DNA of 64,000 nucleotides from NCBI RefSeq assembly GCF_900163655.1, contig NZ_FWFG01000068.1:62001-126000 (forward strand), in the 5' to 3' direction. This DNA comes from Brachybacterium nesterenkovii (lineage in GTDB: Bacteria > Actinomycetota > Actinomycetes > Actinomycetales > Dermabacteraceae). Under the pieces are notes generated by a model, which did not search any database, was not told the DNA's origin, and was given only the letters and a program-made list of their open reading frames with translations. Positions 2,012-16,574 of this stretch are shown here, piece after piece (position 1 is the stretch's first letter; every line of letters begins with the position of its first letter). Made by a program: the position numbers and the translations under genes.

Positions 2012-2344
2012 ATGCCCCGCAAAGACGATCCGGTCACGATGGCCACGCTGCGCTCGTTCAACGCCGCCATGAGCGCGCACCTGGGGATGCCCCAGGAGGT
2101 CGACGACGAGGTCACGGAGATGTACCTCGCGCTGACCGGGGCCGTCGCCAGCGAGATCGTCCGTCCCGCCGCACCGTTCGCGGGCCTCTTCGCCGGCTGG
2201 CTCGTGGGCAGCGGGAAGGCCGAGTCCCTCGAAGATGCCGCCGTGATGGTCGCCGAGGCCATGCGGAGCGTGGAGTTCGAGCGGCCTGCGGAGGGCGAAG
2301 GCCCAGCGGAGAATGAAGGGCCTGCGGAGGGCGAGGAGCGCTAG
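2012..2344 (+). CDS. DUF6457-like small protein linked to molybdenum cofactor genes
   Basis: A 110-residue acidic protein. The segment SEIVRPAAPFAGLFAGWLVG (about residues 48-67) matches my recollection of the DUF6457 family core, RPAAPL followed by a small hydrophobic stretch; members often sit next to moa/mob genes in actinobacteria, and here moeA lies 76 bases upstream. Function is unknown. The C-terminus is a low-complexity run of EGP/AEN/EGE repeats arising from a duplicated 14-base stretch in the DNA. The TAG stop (2342-2344) lies inside a CTAG that became the target duplication of the adjacent transposable element, so the gene is intact. Before insertion this stop overlapped that of the convergent gene now at 4783. 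Confidence 0.75.
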   Translation: MPRKDDPVTMATLRSFNAAMSAHLGMPQEVDDEVTEMYLALTGAVASEIVRPAAPFAGLFAGWLVGSGKAESLEDAAVMVAEAMRSVEFERPAEGEGPAENEGPAEGEER

Positions 2345-2345
2345 A
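2340..2345. repeat. Left 6-bp target site duplication of IS481-type element
   Basis: GCTAGA here is repeated exactly at 4782-4787, directly outside the terminal inverted repeats. NCTAGN is the known target form of the IS481 family. Confidence 0.9.
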
Positions 2346-2368
2346 TGTACTGCCCGGAGACGTTGATC
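2346..2368 (+). repeat. Left terminal inverted repeat
   Basis: These 23 bases are the exact reverse complement of 4759-4781 and start with TGT, as IS481-family ends do. Confidence 0.92.
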
Positions 2369-2449
2369 GAGCCGCCACGGCCCTGGCGGTCGTGTAGCGA
2401 CACCACAGTGGTCGTCAGACAAGTGACTGTTTCTGGGCCGGGGCTTCCC

Positions 2450-2455
2450 TAGGGT
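2450..2455 (+). promoter_or_regulatory. -10 box of leaderless AraC-type gene in the element
   Basis: TAGGGT is followed by six bases and the ATG at 2462. The passenger gene uses the same leaderless layout as the host genes, which suggests an actinobacterial origin. Confidence 0.5.
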
Positions 2456-2461
2456 GGGTGC

Positions 2462-3259
2462 ATGCCCGTCTGGCAGCCAGCTATCCCGCAAGGGTTGCGC
2501 CCCCATCTCCTTTCCTGGGTGGGGTACGAATTCACCAGTACCGACACCGTCCACCACGGGGTTCCCTCGATGGGCGTCACGGTGGTGCTGTCGCTCGCAG
2601 AGCCCATCGACTGTGGCTGGCTTCATGGCGACGCGCGGCATCTCTGTGACCTACTAGTCTCCGGCCTGCACACCACTCCGGCTCTGATCCAGTCGAGGGG
2701 ACGCCAGCAGGGCCTCGAATTGTCGCTCCACCCGCTCTCGACCCGTCGGCTTCTCGGGCTGCCGGCCGGGGAACTGGCCGGCTCGATGGTTGATGTGAAT
2801 GATCTCTCGTGGCCCAGGCGCCTGCTCGACCAGCTGCGGCAGTCAACGTGGCCACGACGGTTCCACCTCTTGGCGGCATTCCTCACCAAGAGGCTGGAGC
2901 AGCATCCTCATGCACCGCGCGCAGACCTGGTCGAGGCACTCGCGCGGATCCATCGGACCCGAGGCACGATCCCCATCTCCGGCCTGGCTCAGGACGTTGG
3001 CCTGTCCAGACGGCGGCTCTCAAGCCTGTTCGACCTCGAGACCGGTCTCTCGCCCAAGCAGGTGGCGCGCATCGCTCGCTTCACCCACGCCAAAGACTTG
3101 GTCCAGCGTGGCGCCCAGCCCTCGGACGTCGCGGCGATGGCCGGCTACAGCGACCAACCGCACCTGTGCCGGGAATGGAAGTCGATGACTGGATGGACGC
3201 TGCGCCAGTCGAAGGGCGATTTCCCATTGCTTCAAGACACCGACATGCTTCCGGCGTGA
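2462..3259 (+). CDS. AraC-family transcriptional regulator, transposon passenger
   Basis: A 265-residue protein. The C-terminal 100 residues carry the double helix-turn-helix of the AraC family: ISGLAQDVGLSRRRLSSLF (about 172-190) followed by TGLSPKQVARIARF and the second helix pair PSDVAAMAGYSDQPHLCREW (about 224-243). The N-terminal 150 residues resemble the ligand or sensor domain found in regulators that begin with a proline-rich line such as MPVWQPAIPQGLRPHLLSWV. The stop is 10 bases before the VOC gene, so the two are likely cotranscribed, and a regulator of a VOC partner is the simple reading. Such pairs are common in actinobacteria. Ligand and targets cannot be read from the sequence. 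It lies wholly inside the IS481-type element. Confidence 0.85.
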   Translation: MPVWQPAIPQGLRPHLLSWVGYEFTSTDTVHHGVPSMGVTVVLSLAEPIDCGWLHGDARHLCDLLVSGLHTTPALIQSRGRQQGLELSLHPLSTRRLLGLPAGELAGSMVDVNDLSWPRRLLDQLRQSTWPRRFHLLAAFLTKRLEQHPHAPRADLVEALARIHRTRGTIPISGLAQDVGLSRRRLSSLFDLETGLSPKQVARIARFTHAKDLVQRGAQPSDVAAMAGYSDQPHLCREWKSMTGWTLRQSKGDFPLLQDTDMLPA

Positions 3260-3269
3260 GGCTAGAGCC

Positions 3270-3656
3270 ATGACGACACCACAGCTGTTCCACTGCCTGC
3301 GCTATACAGACGCCGATCGAGGCATCGACTTTCTCCAAGCCATCGGCTTCACCACCGCCATGATCGTGCGGGATCCTGATGACGCGACCTTGGTGGCCCA
3401 TGCGCAACTTGCCTGGCGCGACAACGGGGGCATCATGCTCGGCTCTGTTCGGGACGATGACCCGCATTACGGGCCGGGGATCTGCAACCTGGTGGTCGCC
3501 AGTGATGAGGACGTGGACAGCCTCTTCGCCGCAGCCCTGGCACACGGCGCGACCACCGTCACGGAGCCCAACGACGCCCCCCACGGAGGGCGCAACGCAT
3601 GTGTCGCTGACTTCGATGGCCACTGGTGGAACCTCGACTCCTACCCGGGAGCCTGA
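3270..3656 (+). CDS. VOC-fold (glyoxalase/bleomycin-resistance superfamily) protein, transposon passenger
   Basis: A 128-residue single-domain protein with the two beta-alpha-beta-beta-beta modules of the vicinal oxygen chelate fold: LFHCLRYTDADRGIDFLQAIGF at the start and ADFDGHWWNLDSYP at the end. This subgroup often binds a small hydrophobic drug or acts as a glyoxalase-like enzyme, but no substrate can be named. The final DFDGHWWNL motif is typical of the small uncharacterised branch. It follows the AraC gene by 10 bases in the same element, so it is probably the controlled gene. A possible benefit to the host, such as tolerance of a toxic compound, would explain its carriage; that is inference. 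Confidence 0.82.
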   Translation: MTTPQLFHCLRYTDADRGIDFLQAIGFTTAMIVRDPDDATLVAHAQLAWRDNGGIMLGSVRDDDPHYGPGICNLVVASDEDVDSLFAAALAHGATTVTEPNDAPHGGRNACVADFDGHWWNLDSYPGA

Positions 3657-3759
3657 GCCGGGGAACACCCCTCGACACCGTCGTGTGCCACGGCTCACGA
3701 GTTCGTGCACATCTCAATGAGCCCTGACCCACACAATCTCGCCGCCCGCGGCGGCAACT

Positions 3760-3794
3760 GGCCTTCCTGGGCGGCGCATGCCCACAGGAAGGCC
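3760..3794 (+). promoter_or_regulatory. Hairpin sequestering the transposase ribosome binding site
   Basis: Perfect 10-base arms 3760-3769 and 3785-3794 (GGCCTTCCTG / CAGGAAGGCC) enclose a 15-base loop. The 3' arm holds the Shine-Dalgarno AGGAAGG at 3786-3792, seven bases before the transposase ATG. Read-through mRNA would fold this shut. Confidence 0.65.
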
Positions 3795-3799
3795 TTGTC

Positions 3800-4786
3800 A
3801 TGTCCCACGCGAACGCCGCTCTCACCCCTCGCCACCGCCTGATCGTCGGCCGCTTGGTCGTCGATGACGGCTGGCCGATCAGCGAGGTCGCCGCCAGGTT
3901 CCAGGTCTCCTGGCCCACGGTGAAGCGCTGGGCCGACCGCTACCGCACCGGCGAGCCAATGCAGGACAGGTCATCCAGGCCGCATCACTCACCGAACAAG
4001 ACCAACCAGCAGACTGCCAGGCGCTGCGTCCGTCTTCGCCTGCGACTACGGGAGGGGCCGGTGCAGTTGGCCAGCCGACTTGGGATAGCCCCGTCCACGG
4101 TCCACCGCATCCTTACAGACGTGCACTTGAACCGGCTGTCGCACGTCGACCGCGCCACGGGAGAACCGGTGCGCCGTTACGAGCACGATCACCCAGGGTC
4201 GATGCTGCACGTCGACGTGAAGAAGCTCGGCAACATTCCCGACGGCGGAGGATGGCGCTACGTCGGGCGGCGACAGGGCGACAAGAACCGGGCCGCTACA
4301 CCCGACAAGCCGAAGAACAAGCACTACGACCCGTTGATGGGCAAGGCTTACGTCCATACCGTCATCGACGACCACTCCCGCGTCGCCTATGCCGAGATCC
4401 ACGACGACGAAACCGCCCGCACTGCCACCGCCGTGCTGGTCCGAGCCGTCGAGTGGTTCAACGCCCGCGGCGTCACCGTCGAGCGGGTCCTGTCCGACAA
4501 CGGCGGCGCGTACCGCTCACACCTGTGGCGCGACACCTGCGCCGAACTCGGTATCCGGCACAAGCGCACCCGGCCCTACAGGCCGCAGACCAACGGGAAA
4601 ATCGAGCGCTTCCACCGCACCCTGGCCGACGGATGGGCTTACGCCCGCTGCTACACCTCCGAAGCCGAACGACGGGGCGAGCTGGACGACTGGCTGCACT
4701 ACTACAACCATCACCGGCCGCACACGGCCTGCGGGAACCTCCCGCCCTTCTCGCGATTGATCAACGTCTCCGGGCAGTACAGCTAG
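3800..4786 (+). CDS. IS481-family DDE transposase
   Basis: A 328-residue transposase with an N-terminal helix-turn-helix (ISEVAARFQVSWPTVKRW, about residues 27-44), a second DNA-binding segment (ASRLGIAPSTVHRIL, 91-105) and an RNase H-fold core. The acidic triad is D139 (HVDVKKLG), D233 (LSDNGGAY) and E269 (KIERFHRTLADGW), giving DD35E spacing. The end LINVSGQYS is typical of the family. The ATG at 3800 is chosen because AGGAAGG lies seven bases upstream. The reading frame runs out of the element: the final serine codon is completed and the TAG stop is supplied by the duplicated target GCTAGA. The gene appears intact. Confidence 0.96.
   Translation: MSHANAALTPRHRLIVGRLVVDDGWPISEVAARFQVSWPTVKRWADRYRTGEPMQDRSSRPHHSPNKTNQQTARRCVRLRLRLREGPVQLASRLGIAPSTVHRILTDVHLNRLSHVDRATGEPVRRYEHDHPGSMLHVDVKKLGNIPDGGGWRYVGRRQGDKNRAATPDKPKNKHYDPLMGKAYVHTVIDDHSRVAYAEIHDDETARTATAVLVRAVEWFNARGVTVERVLSDNGGAYRSHLWRDTCAELGIRHKRTRPYRPQTNGKIERFHRTLADGWAYARCYTSEAERRGELDDWLHYYNHHRPHTACGNLPPFSRLINVSGQYS
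4759..4781 (-). repeat. Right terminal inverted repeat
   Basis: Exact reverse complement of 2346-2368. It overlaps the last codons of the transposase (INVSGQY). Confidence 0.92.
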
Positions 4787-4787
4787 A
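4782..4787. repeat. Right 6-bp target site duplication
   Basis: GCTAGA identical to 2340-2345. It contains the transposase TAG stop and, on the other strand, the TAG stop of the gene at 4783-5103. Confidence 0.9.
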
Positions 4788-5103
4788 GCCCCTCGCGGCC
4801 CTGCGCCGACTGCTCGAGCCGTCGCGTCTGCTCGCGGCGCGCTCGCGTCGCCTCGCGGTACGTCTGCCGAGTGCGCAGCAGATCCCGTGCGCGCTCGACG
4901 CCGAACAGCAGACAGGCCCCGATCGCCGTCCCCAGGGCGAAGGCCGACAGTGATGCGCTGTAGCTCCAGCCGCCCGCGATGACGAGGGCGAGCGCCGCCA
5001 CGACGACGGGCCAGCGGCCGATGCCGCGATGCCCCAGGAGGTCTGACGCCGCGACGGCCGCGAGCACGCCGAGGGCCACGAGCGCCAGATGCAGGAAGGT
5101 CAC
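4783..5103 (-). CDS. Small membrane protein of unknown function
   Basis: A 106-residue protein with about three hydrophobic segments (residues 3-20, 30-47 and 50-68) and a charged, Arg-rich cytoplasmic-type tail ending TRRLEQSAQGREGL. I do not recognise a family. The GTG start at 5103 fits a leaderless transcript: TAACAT lies at 5110-5115 on this strand, six bases upstream. The stop TAG falls in the target duplication of the IS481-type element, so insertion did not change the protein. Before insertion the gene would have ended in the same CTAG as the convergent DUF6457 gene. Confidence 0.7.
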   Translation of the reverse strand: MTFLHLALVALGVLAAVAASDLLGHRGIGRWPVVVAALALVIAGGWSYSASLSAFALGTAIGACLLFGVERARDLLRTRQTYREATRARREQTRRLEQSAQGREGL

Positions 5104-12439: not shown

Positions 12440-13536
12440 CCTCCGATCGCGCTCATGGGGCGCTCGGGCGGCGTGAAAACCGCCGTGTCCATGCCGTGCC
12501 CGGCGGGCTTGCCCCACTGGGCGGCCCGCCAGATATCGGCGATCTCCTCATCGCTCGCGCCGCCCCGCAGGGCGGTGCGCAGATCCGTCTCCTCATGGCT
12601 GAACAGGCACGTGCGCACGCGGCCCTCGGCGGTCAGGCGGGTGCGGCGGCAGTCCGCGCAGAACGGCTCGGTGACCGAGGCGATCGTGCCCACGCGCCCC
12701 CGGTGCTCGCCGCTGGCGCGATCGGCCACGTCGAACAGCTCGGCCGGGGCTCCGGCCCTCTCGACCGCAGCGGGCGTCAGCACGAAGCGCTCGGAGAGGA
12801 TCTCCCGCATCCCGGCGGCCGTGACCATATGGTCGCGGTCCCAGATGCGGTCGGCGTCCAGCGGCATCTGCTCGATCACGCGCAGCTCGAGACCGCGGTC
12901 CAGGCACCAGGACAGGAGGTCCGGCAGCTCGTGGTCGTTGACGCCCGGCAGCAGCACCGCGTTGATCTTCACCGGGGAGAGCCCTGCCGCGAGGGCGCCG
13001 TCGATGCCCGCGAGCACGCGGTGCAGCAGCGGGCGGCGGGTCATGGTCTCGAAGGTCTCGGCCACCACGGTGTCGAGTGAGACGTTGATGCGGTCCAGGC
13101 CGGCCTCGGCCAGTGCGGCGGCGCGGGCGTCCAGGCCGATCGCGTTGGTGGTCAGGGCGATGTTCGGGCGCGGGTCCAGGGCCGCGACGCCCGCGATGAT
13201 CTCCGCGAGGTCCGGGCGGGTCAGCGGCTCGCCGCCGGTGAAGCGCACCTGGTCCACGCCGAAGGACTCGACGCCGATGCGCACCAGGCGCACGATCTCC
13301 TCGCGGCTCAGCAGCTGCTCGCCCCGCAGGAACGTCATCCCCGAGGCCGGCATGCAGTAGGTGCAGCGGAGGTTGCAGAAGTCCGTGAGGGAGATGCGCA
13401 GGTCCGTGGCGCTGCGGCCGTAGCGGTCGATGAGGCCGGGTGCGTCGGGGCGGTCGGAGGTGTCCGGCAGCTGAGGAGCGGCCGGATCGGTGCGGCGGGG
13501 CACGGGCATGCCCAGCGACACGGAGCGCGGTGCCAT
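12436..13536 (-). CDS. moaA: GTP 3',8-cyclase MoaA
   Basis: A 366-residue radical-SAM enzyme that, with MoaC, turns GTP into cyclic pyranopterin monophosphate, the first step of molybdenum cofactor synthesis. The N-terminal [4Fe-4S] motif is CNLRCTYC (about residues 52-59), followed by FTGGEPL. The second cluster motif near the C-terminus, EPFCADCRRTRLTAEGRVRTC, binds the GTP side. The protein ends HGMDTAVFTPPERPMSAIGG, with the GG terminus needed for activity in this family. ATG 13536 is preceded by GAAGGGGA; the frame stays open far upstream but only as antisense of moeA. It is divergent from the second moeA and overlaps moaD. Confidence 0.96.
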   Translation of the reverse strand: MAPRSVSLGMPVPRRTDPAAPQLPDTSDRPDAPGLIDRYGRSATDLRISLTDFCNLRCTYCMPASGMTFLRGEQLLSREEIVRLVRIGVESFGVDQVRFTGGEPLTRPDLAEIIAGVAALDPRPNIALTTNAIGLDARAAALAEAGLDRINVSLDTVVAETFETMTRRPLLHRVLAGIDGALAAGLSPVKINAVLLPGVNDHELPDLLSWCLDRGLELRVIEQMPLDADRIWDRDHMVTAAGMREILSERFVLTPAAVERAGAPAELFDVADRASGEHRGRVGTIASVTEPFCADCRRTRLTAEGRVRTCLFSHEETDLRTALRGGASDEEIADIWRAAQWGKPAGHGMDTAVFTPPERPMSAIGG

Positions 13537-13749
13537 GCGGTCCCCTTCAGGTCGGAGGCGGGGTCTCGCAGGGTCCCGGTGCCGCAGGCGGCGGTGCGGC
13601 CGTGAGCCCGGCGATGCCGACCCAGGATAGTCGGCGCGTCTGACAGCGGGAGCACCGCGACGACGGCCGCGTACTGGCGGCGGCGAGCGGGAGGCGCGGG
13701 ATACTGGACGCTCAGCCCGCCCGCCCGTCGTCCTTCGGAGGAGCCCCGC

Positions 13750-14994
13750 ATGGCCCACGATCACGCCTCCTCGCCGTCGACGCGCGTGCCGCTGGCCGAT
13801 CACCAGGCCGACGTCGCCGCCCTGCTCACGCCCCTGCTGCGCAGCGAGCGACGGGCCCTGGGTCCCGAGCTCGTCGGGCGCATCGCCGCCGCCGAGCGCC
13901 GCGCCGTGATCGACGTGCCCAGCGCTGACAACTCGCAGATGGACGGCTTCGCCCTCGCGTGCGCGGATCTCGGCGCGGCAGGAGAGGAGCGGACCCTGCC
14001 CGTCGGCACCGCGATCCCCGCCGGGGCGGCGCCGTCGCCGCATGAGCCGGGCACGGCGCAGCCGATCATGACGGGCGCCCCGCTGCCGGACGGGGCCGAC
14101 CTCGTCGTCCCCGTCGAGGAGGCCGTGACCGGCGGCTTCGACACGGCTGAGGTGACCTTGCGCCCCGTTGACGTCGCCGCCGGACGGTTCGTGCGCCCCC
14201 GCGGCTCCGACACCCGGGAGGGCGATACGGTCCTGCGAGCGGGGGACCGCCTCACCCCGGCCCGCATCGCCCACCTCGCCTCCGTCGGCGTCCGCGACGT
14301 CGAGGTGCTCGCGCCCGTCCGCACCGCCGTGCTGTCCACCGGCAGCGAGGTCGCCGGCTGTGACGAGACCCTTCCCGACGGCGGCGCCTTCGACGCCAAC
14401 GGGCCCGGTCTGGCCGCCGCGCTCGCCGACGCCGGGGCCGACGTCGTGGCCGTCGGCCGCGTCCCCGACGACCCCGCCGCCCTCCATGCGCGCCTGGCGG
14501 AGCTGGCCGCGGACGGCATCGAGCTGCTCGTGACCAGCGGCGGCGTCAGCAAGGGCGCCTATGAGGTGGTCAAGCTCGCCGCCGAGCTCCCGGGCATCGA
14601 GCTCACGTTCCTGAGCGTCGCGATGCAGCCCGGCGGCCCCCAGGGCATCGGCACCGCGACCGTCGACGGGCACCGCATCGCCTGGGTCGCCCTGCCCGGC
14701 AACCCCGTATCGTCCCTGCTGTCGTGCGAGCTGCTGCTACGGCCCGCGCTCGGCGCCCCCGCCCGCACCCGTCTGCGCCTGCCCGTCCGCGTCGAGTCCG
14801 ATGAGCCCTCGCCCGTCGCCCTCGAGCAGTTCCGGCGCGCGCGCCTGCTGCCCGGCGGCGAGGTGCGCCTCGCGGGCGGGCCCTCGTCCCACCTGCTCGG
14901 CGCGCTCGCCGTCGCCGACGCCCTCGTGATCGTCCCCGTCGGCGTCGACGCCGTCCGCGACGGCGACACGCTGACGACCATCGTCCTGAGCTGA
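13750..14994 (+). CDS. moeA: Molybdopterin molybdenumtransferase MoeA (second copy)
   Basis: A 414-residue MoeA with DNSQMDGFALA (about 59-69), IMTGAPLPDGADLVVPVEEAV (about 100-120), the MoaB-like SGGVSKGAYEVVKL loop (about 264-277), QPGGPQGIG and LPGNPVSSLLSCELLLRP (about 317-334). The PGNPVSSL form is the canonical one, so this copy is the better candidate for the main molybdate insertase; the first copy has PGTPVGALV. ATG 13750 has GGAGGAG at 13737-13743. It heads the operon moeA-moaC-moaB-moaE with gaps of 7 bases or overlaps, and shares a 213-base divergent region with moaA. Confidence 0.95.
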   Translation: MAHDHASSPSTRVPLADHQADVAALLTPLLRSERRALGPELVGRIAAAERRAVIDVPSADNSQMDGFALACADLGAAGEERTLPVGTAIPAGAAPSPHEPGTAQPIMTGAPLPDGADLVVPVEEAVTGGFDTAEVTLRPVDVAAGRFVRPRGSDTREGDTVLRAGDRLTPARIAHLASVGVRDVEVLAPVRTAVLSTGSEVAGCDETLPDGGAFDANGPGLAAALADAGADVVAVGRVPDDPAALHARLAELAADGIELLVTSGGVSKGAYEVVKLAAELPGIELTFLSVAMQPGGPQGIGTATVDGHRIAWVALPGNPVSSLLSCELLLRPALGAPARTRLRLPVRVESDEPSPVALEQFRRARLLPGGEVRLAGGPSSHLLGALAVADALVIVPVGVDAVRDGDTLTTIVLS

Positions 14995-15001
14995 GGAGCC
15001 C

Positions 15002-15565
15002 ATGCCCGAGATGACCCCCGCCGAGAACGCGCCTGTCCCCGACACGCTCACCCACGTGCGCGCCGACGGCAGCGCCCACATGGTCGACGTGACCGACAAG
15101 CCCGTGACCTCCCGCAGCGCGAGCGCCCGCGCCGTGCTGCGCACCCGCGAGGACGTGATCGCGCGCCTCGTGGCCGATGACCTGCCCAAGGGCGAGGCCC
15201 TCGCCGTCTCCCGGCTCGCCGGGATCATGGGGGCCAAGCGCACGAGCGACCTCATCCCGCTGTGCCATCCGCTGCCGCTGACCGGGGTCGAGCTCGACCT
15301 CGACGCCCACGACGACGTCGTCGAGATCACCGCCCGGGTGCGGACCGCCGGCCTCACGGGCGTCGAGATGGAGGCCCTCACCGCTGCGACGGTGTGCGCG
15401 CTGACCGTGTTCGACATGATCAAGGCCGTGGACCACCTGGCCGTGATCGAGGACGTGCGCGTGCTCGCGAAGTCCGGCGGCAAGAGCGGCGACTGGGACC
15501 GCGACGTCGCCGCGGGCGCGAAGGGCGCCGCCAGCGCGAACGGCGCCGCGGGGGAGCCGTCCTGA
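15002..15565 (+). CDS. moaC: Cyclic pyranopterin monophosphate synthase MoaC
   Basis: A 187-residue MoaC, which rearranges the MoaA product into cyclic pyranopterin monophosphate. Motifs seen are MVDVTDKPVTSRSASARA (about 24-41), GIMGAKRTSDLIPLCHPLPLTG (about 75-96), with the conserved K-R-T and C-H residues, and TGVEMEALTAATVCALTVFDMIKAVD. A C-terminal extension of about 20 residues rich in Ala and Gly follows the usual end KSGDW. The TGA at 15563-15565 overlaps the next start as TGATG. Confidence 0.96.
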   Translation: MPEMTPAENAPVPDTLTHVRADGSAHMVDVTDKPVTSRSASARAVLRTREDVIARLVADDLPKGEALAVSRLAGIMGAKRTSDLIPLCHPLPLTGVELDLDAHDDVVEITARVRTAGLTGVEMEALTAATVCALTVFDMIKAVDHLAVIEDVRVLAKSGGKSGDWDRDVAAGAKGAASANGAAGEPS

Positions 15566-16092
15566 TGCTCACCGCCCGCATCCTCATCGCCTCCACCCGC
15601 GCCGCCCGCGGCGAGTACGCCGACCGCACGGGACCCGTCCTGCGCGACTGGCTCGCCTCCCGCGGCTTCGACGTGCCGGCCCCGATCGTCGTCGCCGACG
15701 GGCACGAGGTCGGGCGAGCGCTGCGCCGGGCGCTGGGGGAGGAGCCCGATGTGCTCATCACCTCCGGCGGCACCGGCATCACGCCCACGGACTCGACGCC
15801 CGAGCAGACCGCGCCCCACCTCACGTGCGAGCTGCCCGGGATCATCGACGCGATCCGCCGTCGCGGTGAGGCCGCCGCGCCCTCGGCGATCCTCTCGCGC
15901 GGTGTCGCCGGGATGGCCGGACGCACCTTCGTGGTGAACCTCCCCGGCTCGACGGGCGGCGTGCGCGACGGCATCGCCGTGCTCGACCCGGTCCTCGACC
16001 ACGTCCTCGATCAGCGCGACGGCGGCGGCCACGCGGCCGACCCGCACCCGACACCCGACACCCCTCACGACCCGCAGGAGCCCACCGCATGA
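15565..16092 (+). CDS. moaB: MoaB/MogA-type molybdopterin adenylyltransferase
   Basis: A 175-residue protein of the MoaB/Mog family, which adenylates molybdopterin before MoeA adds molybdate. Seen are TARILIASTRAARGEYADRTGP at the start, DVLITSGGTGITPTDSTPEQT (about 65-85), the binding loop, and AILSRGVAGMAGRTFVVNLPGSTGGVRDG near 115-140. The ATG overlaps the last base of the moaC stop. A tail of about 20 residues rich in His, Pro and Asp follows the last helix, and the end overlaps moaE as ATGA. Whether it acts as MogA or MoaB cannot be told from sequence alone. Confidence 0.92.
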   Translation: MLTARILIASTRAARGEYADRTGPVLRDWLASRGFDVPAPIVVADGHEVGRALRRALGEEPDVLITSGGTGITPTDSTPEQTAPHLTCELPGIIDAIRRRGEAAAPSAILSRGVAGMAGRTFVVNLPGSTGGVRDGIAVLDPVLDHVLDQRDGGGHAADPHPTPDTPHDPQEPTA

Positions 16093-16574
16093 CCCGGCCC
16101 GAACCCGCCGACCTCCGCGTCCCCGGCGACCCCGCGATGGGCGCGGCCGTCGACCGCGTCGCCTACGCCGCCGTCACCACCGATGAGGTGTCCGTGCAGC
16201 GCATGTCCTCCCTCGTGCAGGATCCCCGCTGCGGCGCCCTCGTCACCTTCGACGGCGTCGTGCGCGACCACGACGAGGGCAAGGGCGTGCTGCTGCTCGA
16301 CTACTCCGCGCACCCCAGCGCCCAGGCCGTGATCGAGGAGGTCGCCGCCGAGATCGCCGAGCGCTACGCCGACGCGATCCTCGCGCTGGCCCACCGGTAC
16401 GGCCCCCTCACGGTCGGCGAGAGCGCGCTCGTGTGCGCCGTCGCCGCCCCGCACCGCAAGCTCGCCTTCGCCGCCTGCGACGACCTCGTCGACACCGTCA
16501 AGAAGCGCCTGCCGATCTGGAAGCACCAGCGCTTCGACGACGGCACCGACGAATGGGTCGGGGCGCTCGGGTGA
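16089..16574 (+). CDS. moaE: Molybdopterin synthase large subunit MoaE
   Basis: A 161-residue MoaE, the catalytic subunit that inserts sulfur from MoaD thiocarboxylate into cyclic pyranopterin monophosphate. It shows GALVTFDGVVRDHDEGKGVLLLDYSAHP (about 48-75), the family FxGxVR..n.g..v..L.YE pattern, and KKRLPIWKHQRFDDGTDEWVG at the end with the active-site lysines. The start overlaps the moaB stop as ATGA and its own stop overlaps the following membrane protein gene as GTGA. With moaD on the other strand it completes the synthase. Confidence 0.96.
   Translation: MTRPEPADLRVPGDPAMGAAVDRVAYAAVTTDEVSVQRMSSLVQDPRCGALVTFDGVVRDHDEGKGVLLLDYSAHPSAQAVIEEVAAEIAERYADAILALAHRYGPLTVGESALVCAVAAPHRKLAFAACDDLVDTVKKRLPIWKHQRFDDGTDEWVGALG

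Follow-up and report, generated by a model that had tools for sequence, protein, structure and literature searches.

The window analysed here is a stretch of 64,000 nucleotides from Brachybacterium nesterenkovii (NCBI RefSeq assembly GCF_900163655.1, contig NZ_FWFG01000068.1, positions 62,001 to 126,000 of the forward strand). Its positions 2346-4781 are occupied by a complete IS481-family transposon of 2,436 bp, which carries three genes, all on the plus strand: an AraC-family regulator, a VOC-fold protein and a transposase (Table 1). The inverted ends are complementary at 23 of 23 bases, for which a simple estimate assuming equal base frequencies gives a chance expectation of about 4e-8 such pairs per stretch of this size, and both the termini (5'-TGT...ACA-3') and the 6-bp NCTAGN duplication are those of the IS481 family. 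The transposase matches NF033577 with 351 bits (cut-off 224) and is thus of the IS481 type; D139, D233 and E269 form its DDE triad, in which 35 residues separate D233 from E269. The HTH domain of the regulator scores 57 bits against PF12833 (cut-off 33.6), which identifies it as an AraC/XylS C-terminal HTH. Perfect 23-bp ends, a GCTAGA repeat, an intact DD35E transposase and internal AraC and VOC genes had all been listed in a preliminary description of this DNA, and all are confirmed by the sequence and by the Pfam and NF033577 matches.

Table 1. Features of the IS481-family element and of its flanks in the window.
Feature	Position	Strand	Remark
Upstream host gene DUF6457	2012-2344	+	Stop at the CTAG site; intact
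Left target duplication GCTAGA	2340-2345	.	TAG at 2342-2344 doubles as the DUF6457 stop
Left inverted repeat TGTACTGCCCGGAGACGTTGATC	2346-2368	+	Each of the 10 loci found with AraC has one or more ends of this kind
AraC-family regulator, 265 aa	2462-3259	+	HTH_18, E 2.5e-15
VOC-fold protein, 128 aa	3270-3656	+	Glyoxalase (Pfam), E 2.7e-7
Stem-loops directly before the transposase start, CAGGAAGG on one 3' arm	3725-3799	+	RNA fold
IS481 transposase, 328 aa	3800-4786	+	NF033577 transpos_IS481, E 3.6e-105
Right inverted repeat	4759-4781	-	Lies inside the transposase gene, at its 3' end
Right target duplication GCTAGA	4782-4787	.	Terminates both the transposase frame and the convergent host ORF
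Convergent host ORF	4783-5103	-	Stop at the CTAG site; intact

The gap of 10 nt between the AraC and VOC genes suggests that the two likely form one operon. A simple scan of the element revealed no sigma-70-type promoter, and an anti-phage defence library contained no match to AraC or VOC and one weak match to the transposase. The source genome holds a single copy of the whole element.

The transposase frame passes through the right end and terminates 5 bases beyond the element, on a TAG provided by the target duplication. Such a target-supplied stop was found in 29 of the 38 element rows examined, among which two places are present twice; the other nine rows are accounted for by premature stops or frame breaks, altered or absent flanks, or a nested end. 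A target TAG has likewise been described to terminate the transposase of TnRErm46 (PMC6794481). The copy of Brevibacterium sp. CS2, inserted at GCTACT, is devoid of a target-supplied stop, and its transposase frame extends to 744 codons. That neither convergent host ORF loses its stop at this site goes with the CTAG motif. Safe-site targeting beyond CTAG was considered and rejected, because 9 of 33 element rows lie at a host gene end versus 7 of 18 CTAG sites outside elements, hence no excess (the 33 rows are the 38 minus L040, L051, L062, L065 and L105, which are doubles or near-doubles).

The stem-loops that precede the transposase gene fold at -37.6 kcal/mol with a z-score of -3.0, and the identical sequence in the Tessaracoccus copy gave -4.0 (100 shuffles); these z-scores are rough, equal sequences having differed by at least 1 between runs. 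A stem-loop with z of -2.8 or lower stands before the transposase in 28 of the 38 rows, with varied sequences, and is not so marked in the remaining 10, which include the AbrB, XRE, MerR and TetR + ABC types. Since the bare element L070 also has one, the stem-loop goes with the element and not with its cargo; it may perhaps limit transposase expression.

A search of the AraC protein against 84,980 species, each represented by one genome, returned 10 loci from seven genera. All 10 are copies of the element, whole, cut or interrupted, in which the VOC gene and one or both ends are present. The copy of Tessaracoccus sp. MC1679 is 99.9% identical over 2,436 bp and lies between two GCTAGG hexamers, that of Brevibacterium sp. 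CS2 is whole, 99.1% identical and bordered on both sides by GCTACT, and that of Gordonia aichiensis is 98.9% identical over all except its first base, which falls at a contig edge. Kocuria varians harbors a full-length copy of 87.6% identity with unequal terminal hexamers, and copies cut by contig ends were found in Gulosibacter, B. rongguiense and two bins, one of which, labelled Phycisphaerae, is probably misbinned because both bins match alike. Two copies are interrupted. That of Brachybacterium squillarum, 98.5% identical along its long piece, is split about 108 bp from one end by sequence that includes a transposase stretch in reverse orientation (64% similar), and that of Dermacoccus abyssi (82–83%) has an ORF within AraC that was recognised by eye as IS3-like. 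Identity of the VOC protein reaches 100% at six loci (L031-L035 and L037), 99% at L036 and L038, 95% in Kocuria and 88% in Dermacoccus.

This comparison supports the mobility that had been proposed for the element: three whole copies, 98.9–99.9% identical, reside at other sites, with 6-bp duplications in Tessaracoccus and Brevibacterium. The two checks put forward in the preliminary description, copies with the same ends elsewhere and an empty site in a relative, both gave positive results. Copies with the same ends occur at other sites in other genera, and in a related species of the genus (G012) the genes on either side of the insertion adjoin each other with no element between them, at 72% identity across the joined flanks; the exact GCTAGA hexamer is absent from that junction, where the alignment has local gaps. 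Neither AraC nor VOC lies between these flanks, contrary to what an ancestral presence of the pair at this site would predict. Among plasmids, the best AraC match reached 40% and none of 182 records covered 80% of the element, and a phylum-wide scan for the exact end motif recovered 3 of 398 genomes only, the source genome among them, and all three belong to the same order.

The notion that a cargo-bearing IS481 element is unusual is not supported by the literature, in which ISArsp12, ISPfr21 and TnRErm46 have been published with regulators and other genes. Of these, ISArsp12 from the Arthrobacter plasmid pA2H1 has TGTACTGACCGGACACGTTG-like ends, 18 of whose 20 published bases are matched by the window element, and an NCTAGN duplication (CCTAGA) (PMC6305408). 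Like the window element, it has a regulator and another gene ahead of the transposase and oriented alike, and the two transposases share 91% identity; it differs by its cargo, ArsR and a permease, with cargo DNA aligning at only about 36-54%. ISPfr21 of Propionibacterium freudenreichii, whose DNA is reported to be 86% identical to that of ISArsp12, also belongs to the IS481 family and has two passengers, including a regulator; it differs by the annotation of this cargo as TetR and a protein of unknown function (PMC2909200). Passengers with a regulator between the left end and the transposase, a feature of the ISArsp12/ISPfr21 group, are present in the window element. TnRErm46 of Rhodococcus equi resembles it by an IS481-type transposase, an NCTAGN target and the movement of regulator, transporter and resistance genes, but differs by its length of 6.9 kb, its ends, its cargo of TetR, transporter and erm(46), and the reported insertions at many sites in isolates (PMC6794481). 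Among the literature matches listed, no IS481 element with AraC–VOC cargo was found; the element may already be named in ISfinder. The window element is a known kind of IS481 transposon whose AraC-VOC cargo is not described in the literature found.

The best solved relative of the VOC protein by sequence is TioX (E 1.1e-9 with the single sequence, 3.6e-17 with a profile of 26 rows, the next at 1e-6), a protein reported to capture thiocoraline (PMC4052310). TioX also ranks first in Foldseek for the VOC model (pLDDT 93), ahead of TnmS1, glyoxalase I (1f9z), and mitomycin- and bleomycin-binding proteins, and VIA-align superposes the two with Z 14.2 and rmsd 2.5 over 116 aligned residues at 29% identity, where several uncharacterised VOC proteins tie with TioX. 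FosX structures are likewise found among the fold matches. By fold and sequence, the protein is kin to drug-binding VOC proteins of the TioX type; it has the VOC fold in common with the bleomycin-, mitomycin- and tiancimycin-binding proteins, TioX being the nearest in sequence. His44 is invariant in all 26 aligned members. The position read by eye as that of the final metal-binding Glu of glyoxalase I has Glu in none of the 26 rows. The AraC protein combines a cupin-like N-terminal part, with a DUF6597 match under the cut-off, and the C-terminal HTH_18 domain; its model (pLDDT 88) matches ToxT/Rns-type AraC regulators, which indicates the fold and no function. Relative to the Kocuria copy, dN/dS amounts to 0.10 for VOC (16 synonymous and 6 nonsynonymous changes), 0.27 for AraC and 0.13 for the transposase, and the VOC ratio relative to Dermacoccus is 0.14 (29 and 17 changes, respectively). 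VOC thus shows purifying selection between diverged copies. The near-identical copies give ratios of 0.6 to 1.8 for AraC and the transposase on few changes, without sign of purifying selection.

Pairs of this type also exist outside elements. Across 38 genomes of the genus, 10 other AraC homologues were found, 7 of which adjoin a VOC homologue, and of 27 non-element VOC loci fetched after searching 248 genomes of the order, 13 adjoin an AraC homologue; the two sets have one place in common. These chromosomal pairs suggest that AraC and VOC were taken up together. The nearest non-element relatives reach only about 41% (AraC) and 56% (VOC) identity, and the donor therefore lies outside the sample.

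A search for the end motif with one mismatch allowed retrieved 43 of 396 genomes of the order, with at least 35 inward-facing end pairs within 5 kb, counted among the listed places: 32 of 1.9–4.2 kb, two of 1.1 kb that are bare (L070 and L071) and one of 661 bp (L059). Thirty-three pairs of other genomes and seven stretches of the source genome were fetched, and their cargo was typed by Pfam for 40 selected ORFs and by similarity to these for the remainder. A typed regulator and effector are present in 27 of the 33 pairs, which are rows rather than independent events; the other six comprise a nested locus with pieces of two elements (L046), two untypable ones (L045 and L067), the two bare elements and L059, which has no transposase.

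Besides AraC + VOC as in the window, the cargo types are Rrf2 + NAD(P)-binding, WYL + RidA, AbrB/MazE-type + ABC ATPase + permease, WYL + VOC, TetR + cupin + DUF4865, LysR + EamA + NAD(P)-binding, XRE-cupin + DUF2938, AraC-DJ-1 + alcohol dehydrogenase + SnoaL, WYL + alpha/beta hydrolase, HxlR + a 148-aa ORF without match + TfoX_N, MerR-TipAS + DUF2268 (a predicted protease), MarR + VOC, TetR + alpha/beta hydrolase and TetR + SDR. The source genome adds TetR + ABC transporter (contig C81) and a second, unrelated AraC + VOC (contig C12, cut by the contig end). Five of 40 listed plasmid matches, chosen among the best annotated, were inspected and carry Rrf2 + NAD(P)H-binding, WYL + RidA (twice), WYL + VOC, and ArsR + permease. 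Plasmids included, the regulators belong to eleven families, three of which are paired with VOC cargo; the effectors are often, though not all, small-molecule enzymes or transporters.

Several of these loci have peculiarities of their own. The second AraC-VOC pair of the source genome (C12:3968-5275; L075, L007) has the same end motif, its proteins being 24% (AraC, over 86 aa) and 28% (VOC, over 32 aa) identical to those of the window. The stretch C81:13340-18014 (L074) is nested, as the TetR + ABC transporter element at 13387-16511 starts 47 bp inside an apparent IS481 left end. L059 (G013:C1:2410975-2411635) consists of facing ends 661 bp apart around a 187-aa ORF, with neither transposase nor matching duplication, and may be a cassette mobilised in trans. 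The loosely named or functionally uncharacterised proteins DUF2938 (L053), DUF2268 (L058) and DUF4865 (L049) are paired with regulators inside IS481 elements.

Supported branches of the transposase tree, in which gains and losses of cargo are indistinguishable, imply at least two changes each for AraC + VOC, Rrf2 + NAD(P)-binding and WYL + VOC, and near-identical cargo was observed beside different transposases. The clearest case of exchange is that of L057 and L072, from different bacterial families, which differ by 0.8% up to position 1940, inside the transposase gene, and by 18.7% thereafter (dlogL 121.7). In L049 and L064 the difference rises from 0.9% to 8.4%, but this shift falls within the cargo, at position 815 (dlogL 37.5). 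Flanking hexamers are equal in 25 of 38 rows and unequal in these four and in 8 further rows; for the four, inequality is expected if two copies recombined. Between cargo types, homology starts near the transposase start codon and, on the left side, covers only the first 20–28 bases or so. MerR–TipAS + DUF2268 was dropped as evidence for cargo exchange because the transposase frame is broken in L061, L062 and L065, making their tree placement unreliable. Support for a clean breakpoint between cargo and transposase in the window and Kocuria copies was weak (dlogL 8.8), although dS is 0.20 and 0.26 versus 0.60. We regard it as possible, while leaning slightly to the sceptical side, that this IS481 group is a standing vehicle for modules of one switch plus one effector, in which the majority of members would combine a ligand-sensing regulator with its small-molecule enzyme or exporter. 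Recombination within the common ends and the transposase gene would pass these modules from one transposase lineage to another, and the group would thereby serve actinobacteria as a loosely organised, integron-like reservoir of inducible tolerance cassettes.

Taken as a whole, the locus is likely explained by an ISArsp12-group unit transposon with a captured AraC-VOC pair and small-molecule binding cargo. The transposon with its captured pair is the nearly certain part. A chromosomal AraC-VOC pair would have been taken up between the left end and the transposase of an ISArsp12-group element, and the transposase would insert the unit at CTAG-centred sites, where the duplicated TAG would end its frame and spare host genes that stop there, while the stem-loop would hold transposase expression low. 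Practically negligible, in comparison, is the possibility that AraC and VOC are ancestral host genes beside which an IS481 element landed: AraC-VOC pairs do occur in chromosomes of the genus, yet both genes lie inside the ends, the whole unit exists elsewhere with its own duplications, and neither gene stands between the G012 flanks; the reading is already contradicted. AraC could also control the element itself through transposase expression, VOC being incidental, and the 27 of 33 fetched pairs with a typed regulator and effector could be read in that way. This is nevertheless very improbable, given regulators from 11 unrelated families, some of them pointing away from both effector and transposase, AraC-VOC pairs without any element, a stem-loop between cargo and transposase, and two bare relatives devoid of a regulator.

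For the cargo, we favor to some degree a predicted inducible tolerance to a small molecule, whichever the ligand, because of the purifying selection on VOC and its likeness to the drug-binding TioX; the drug or electrophile tolerance suggested at the outset is a plausible form of it. AraC would sense the small molecule and switch on VOC, which would bind and so neutralise it, by analogy with what is reported for TioX. Whether VOC works by binding rather than by catalysis we consider evenly balanced, and caution is advisable since the VOC fold is common to glyoxalase I, FosX and other enzymes. A catalytic electrophile detoxifier of the glyoxalase, thiol transferase or dioxygenase type is the specific alternative: glyoxalase I and FosX are among the fold matches, Pfam assigns the protein to the Glyoxalase superfamily and His44 is invariant throughout the 26 members. 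It seems rather unlikely, as the profile search places TioX well ahead of the next relative and the last Glu ligand known from glyoxalase I has no counterpart, by eye, in the aligned members. Finally, the cargo might be a neutral hitchhiker of no benefit to the host, kept only since the element is young. The near-identical copies are indeed too alike to reveal selection on AraC, and the Dermacoccus AraC contains the IS3-like ORF recognised by eye, but the low VOC ratios to Kocuria and Dermacoccus and the recurrence of regulator-plus-effector cargo in related elements make this improbable.

The element represents a self-contained natural case of a regulated, predicted small-molecule function that has spread across actinobacterial families with its sensor attached, copies of it, often almost unchanged, being found in several distantly related actinobacteria. 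The mosaics show a way in which cargo can be exchanged. It is the regularity of the group that deserves to be followed: if the pattern is true, the ends and transposase would constitute a search handle for candidate sensor-plus-effector modules, and the partners of DUF2938, DUF4865 and DUF2268 may hint at the role of these proteins.
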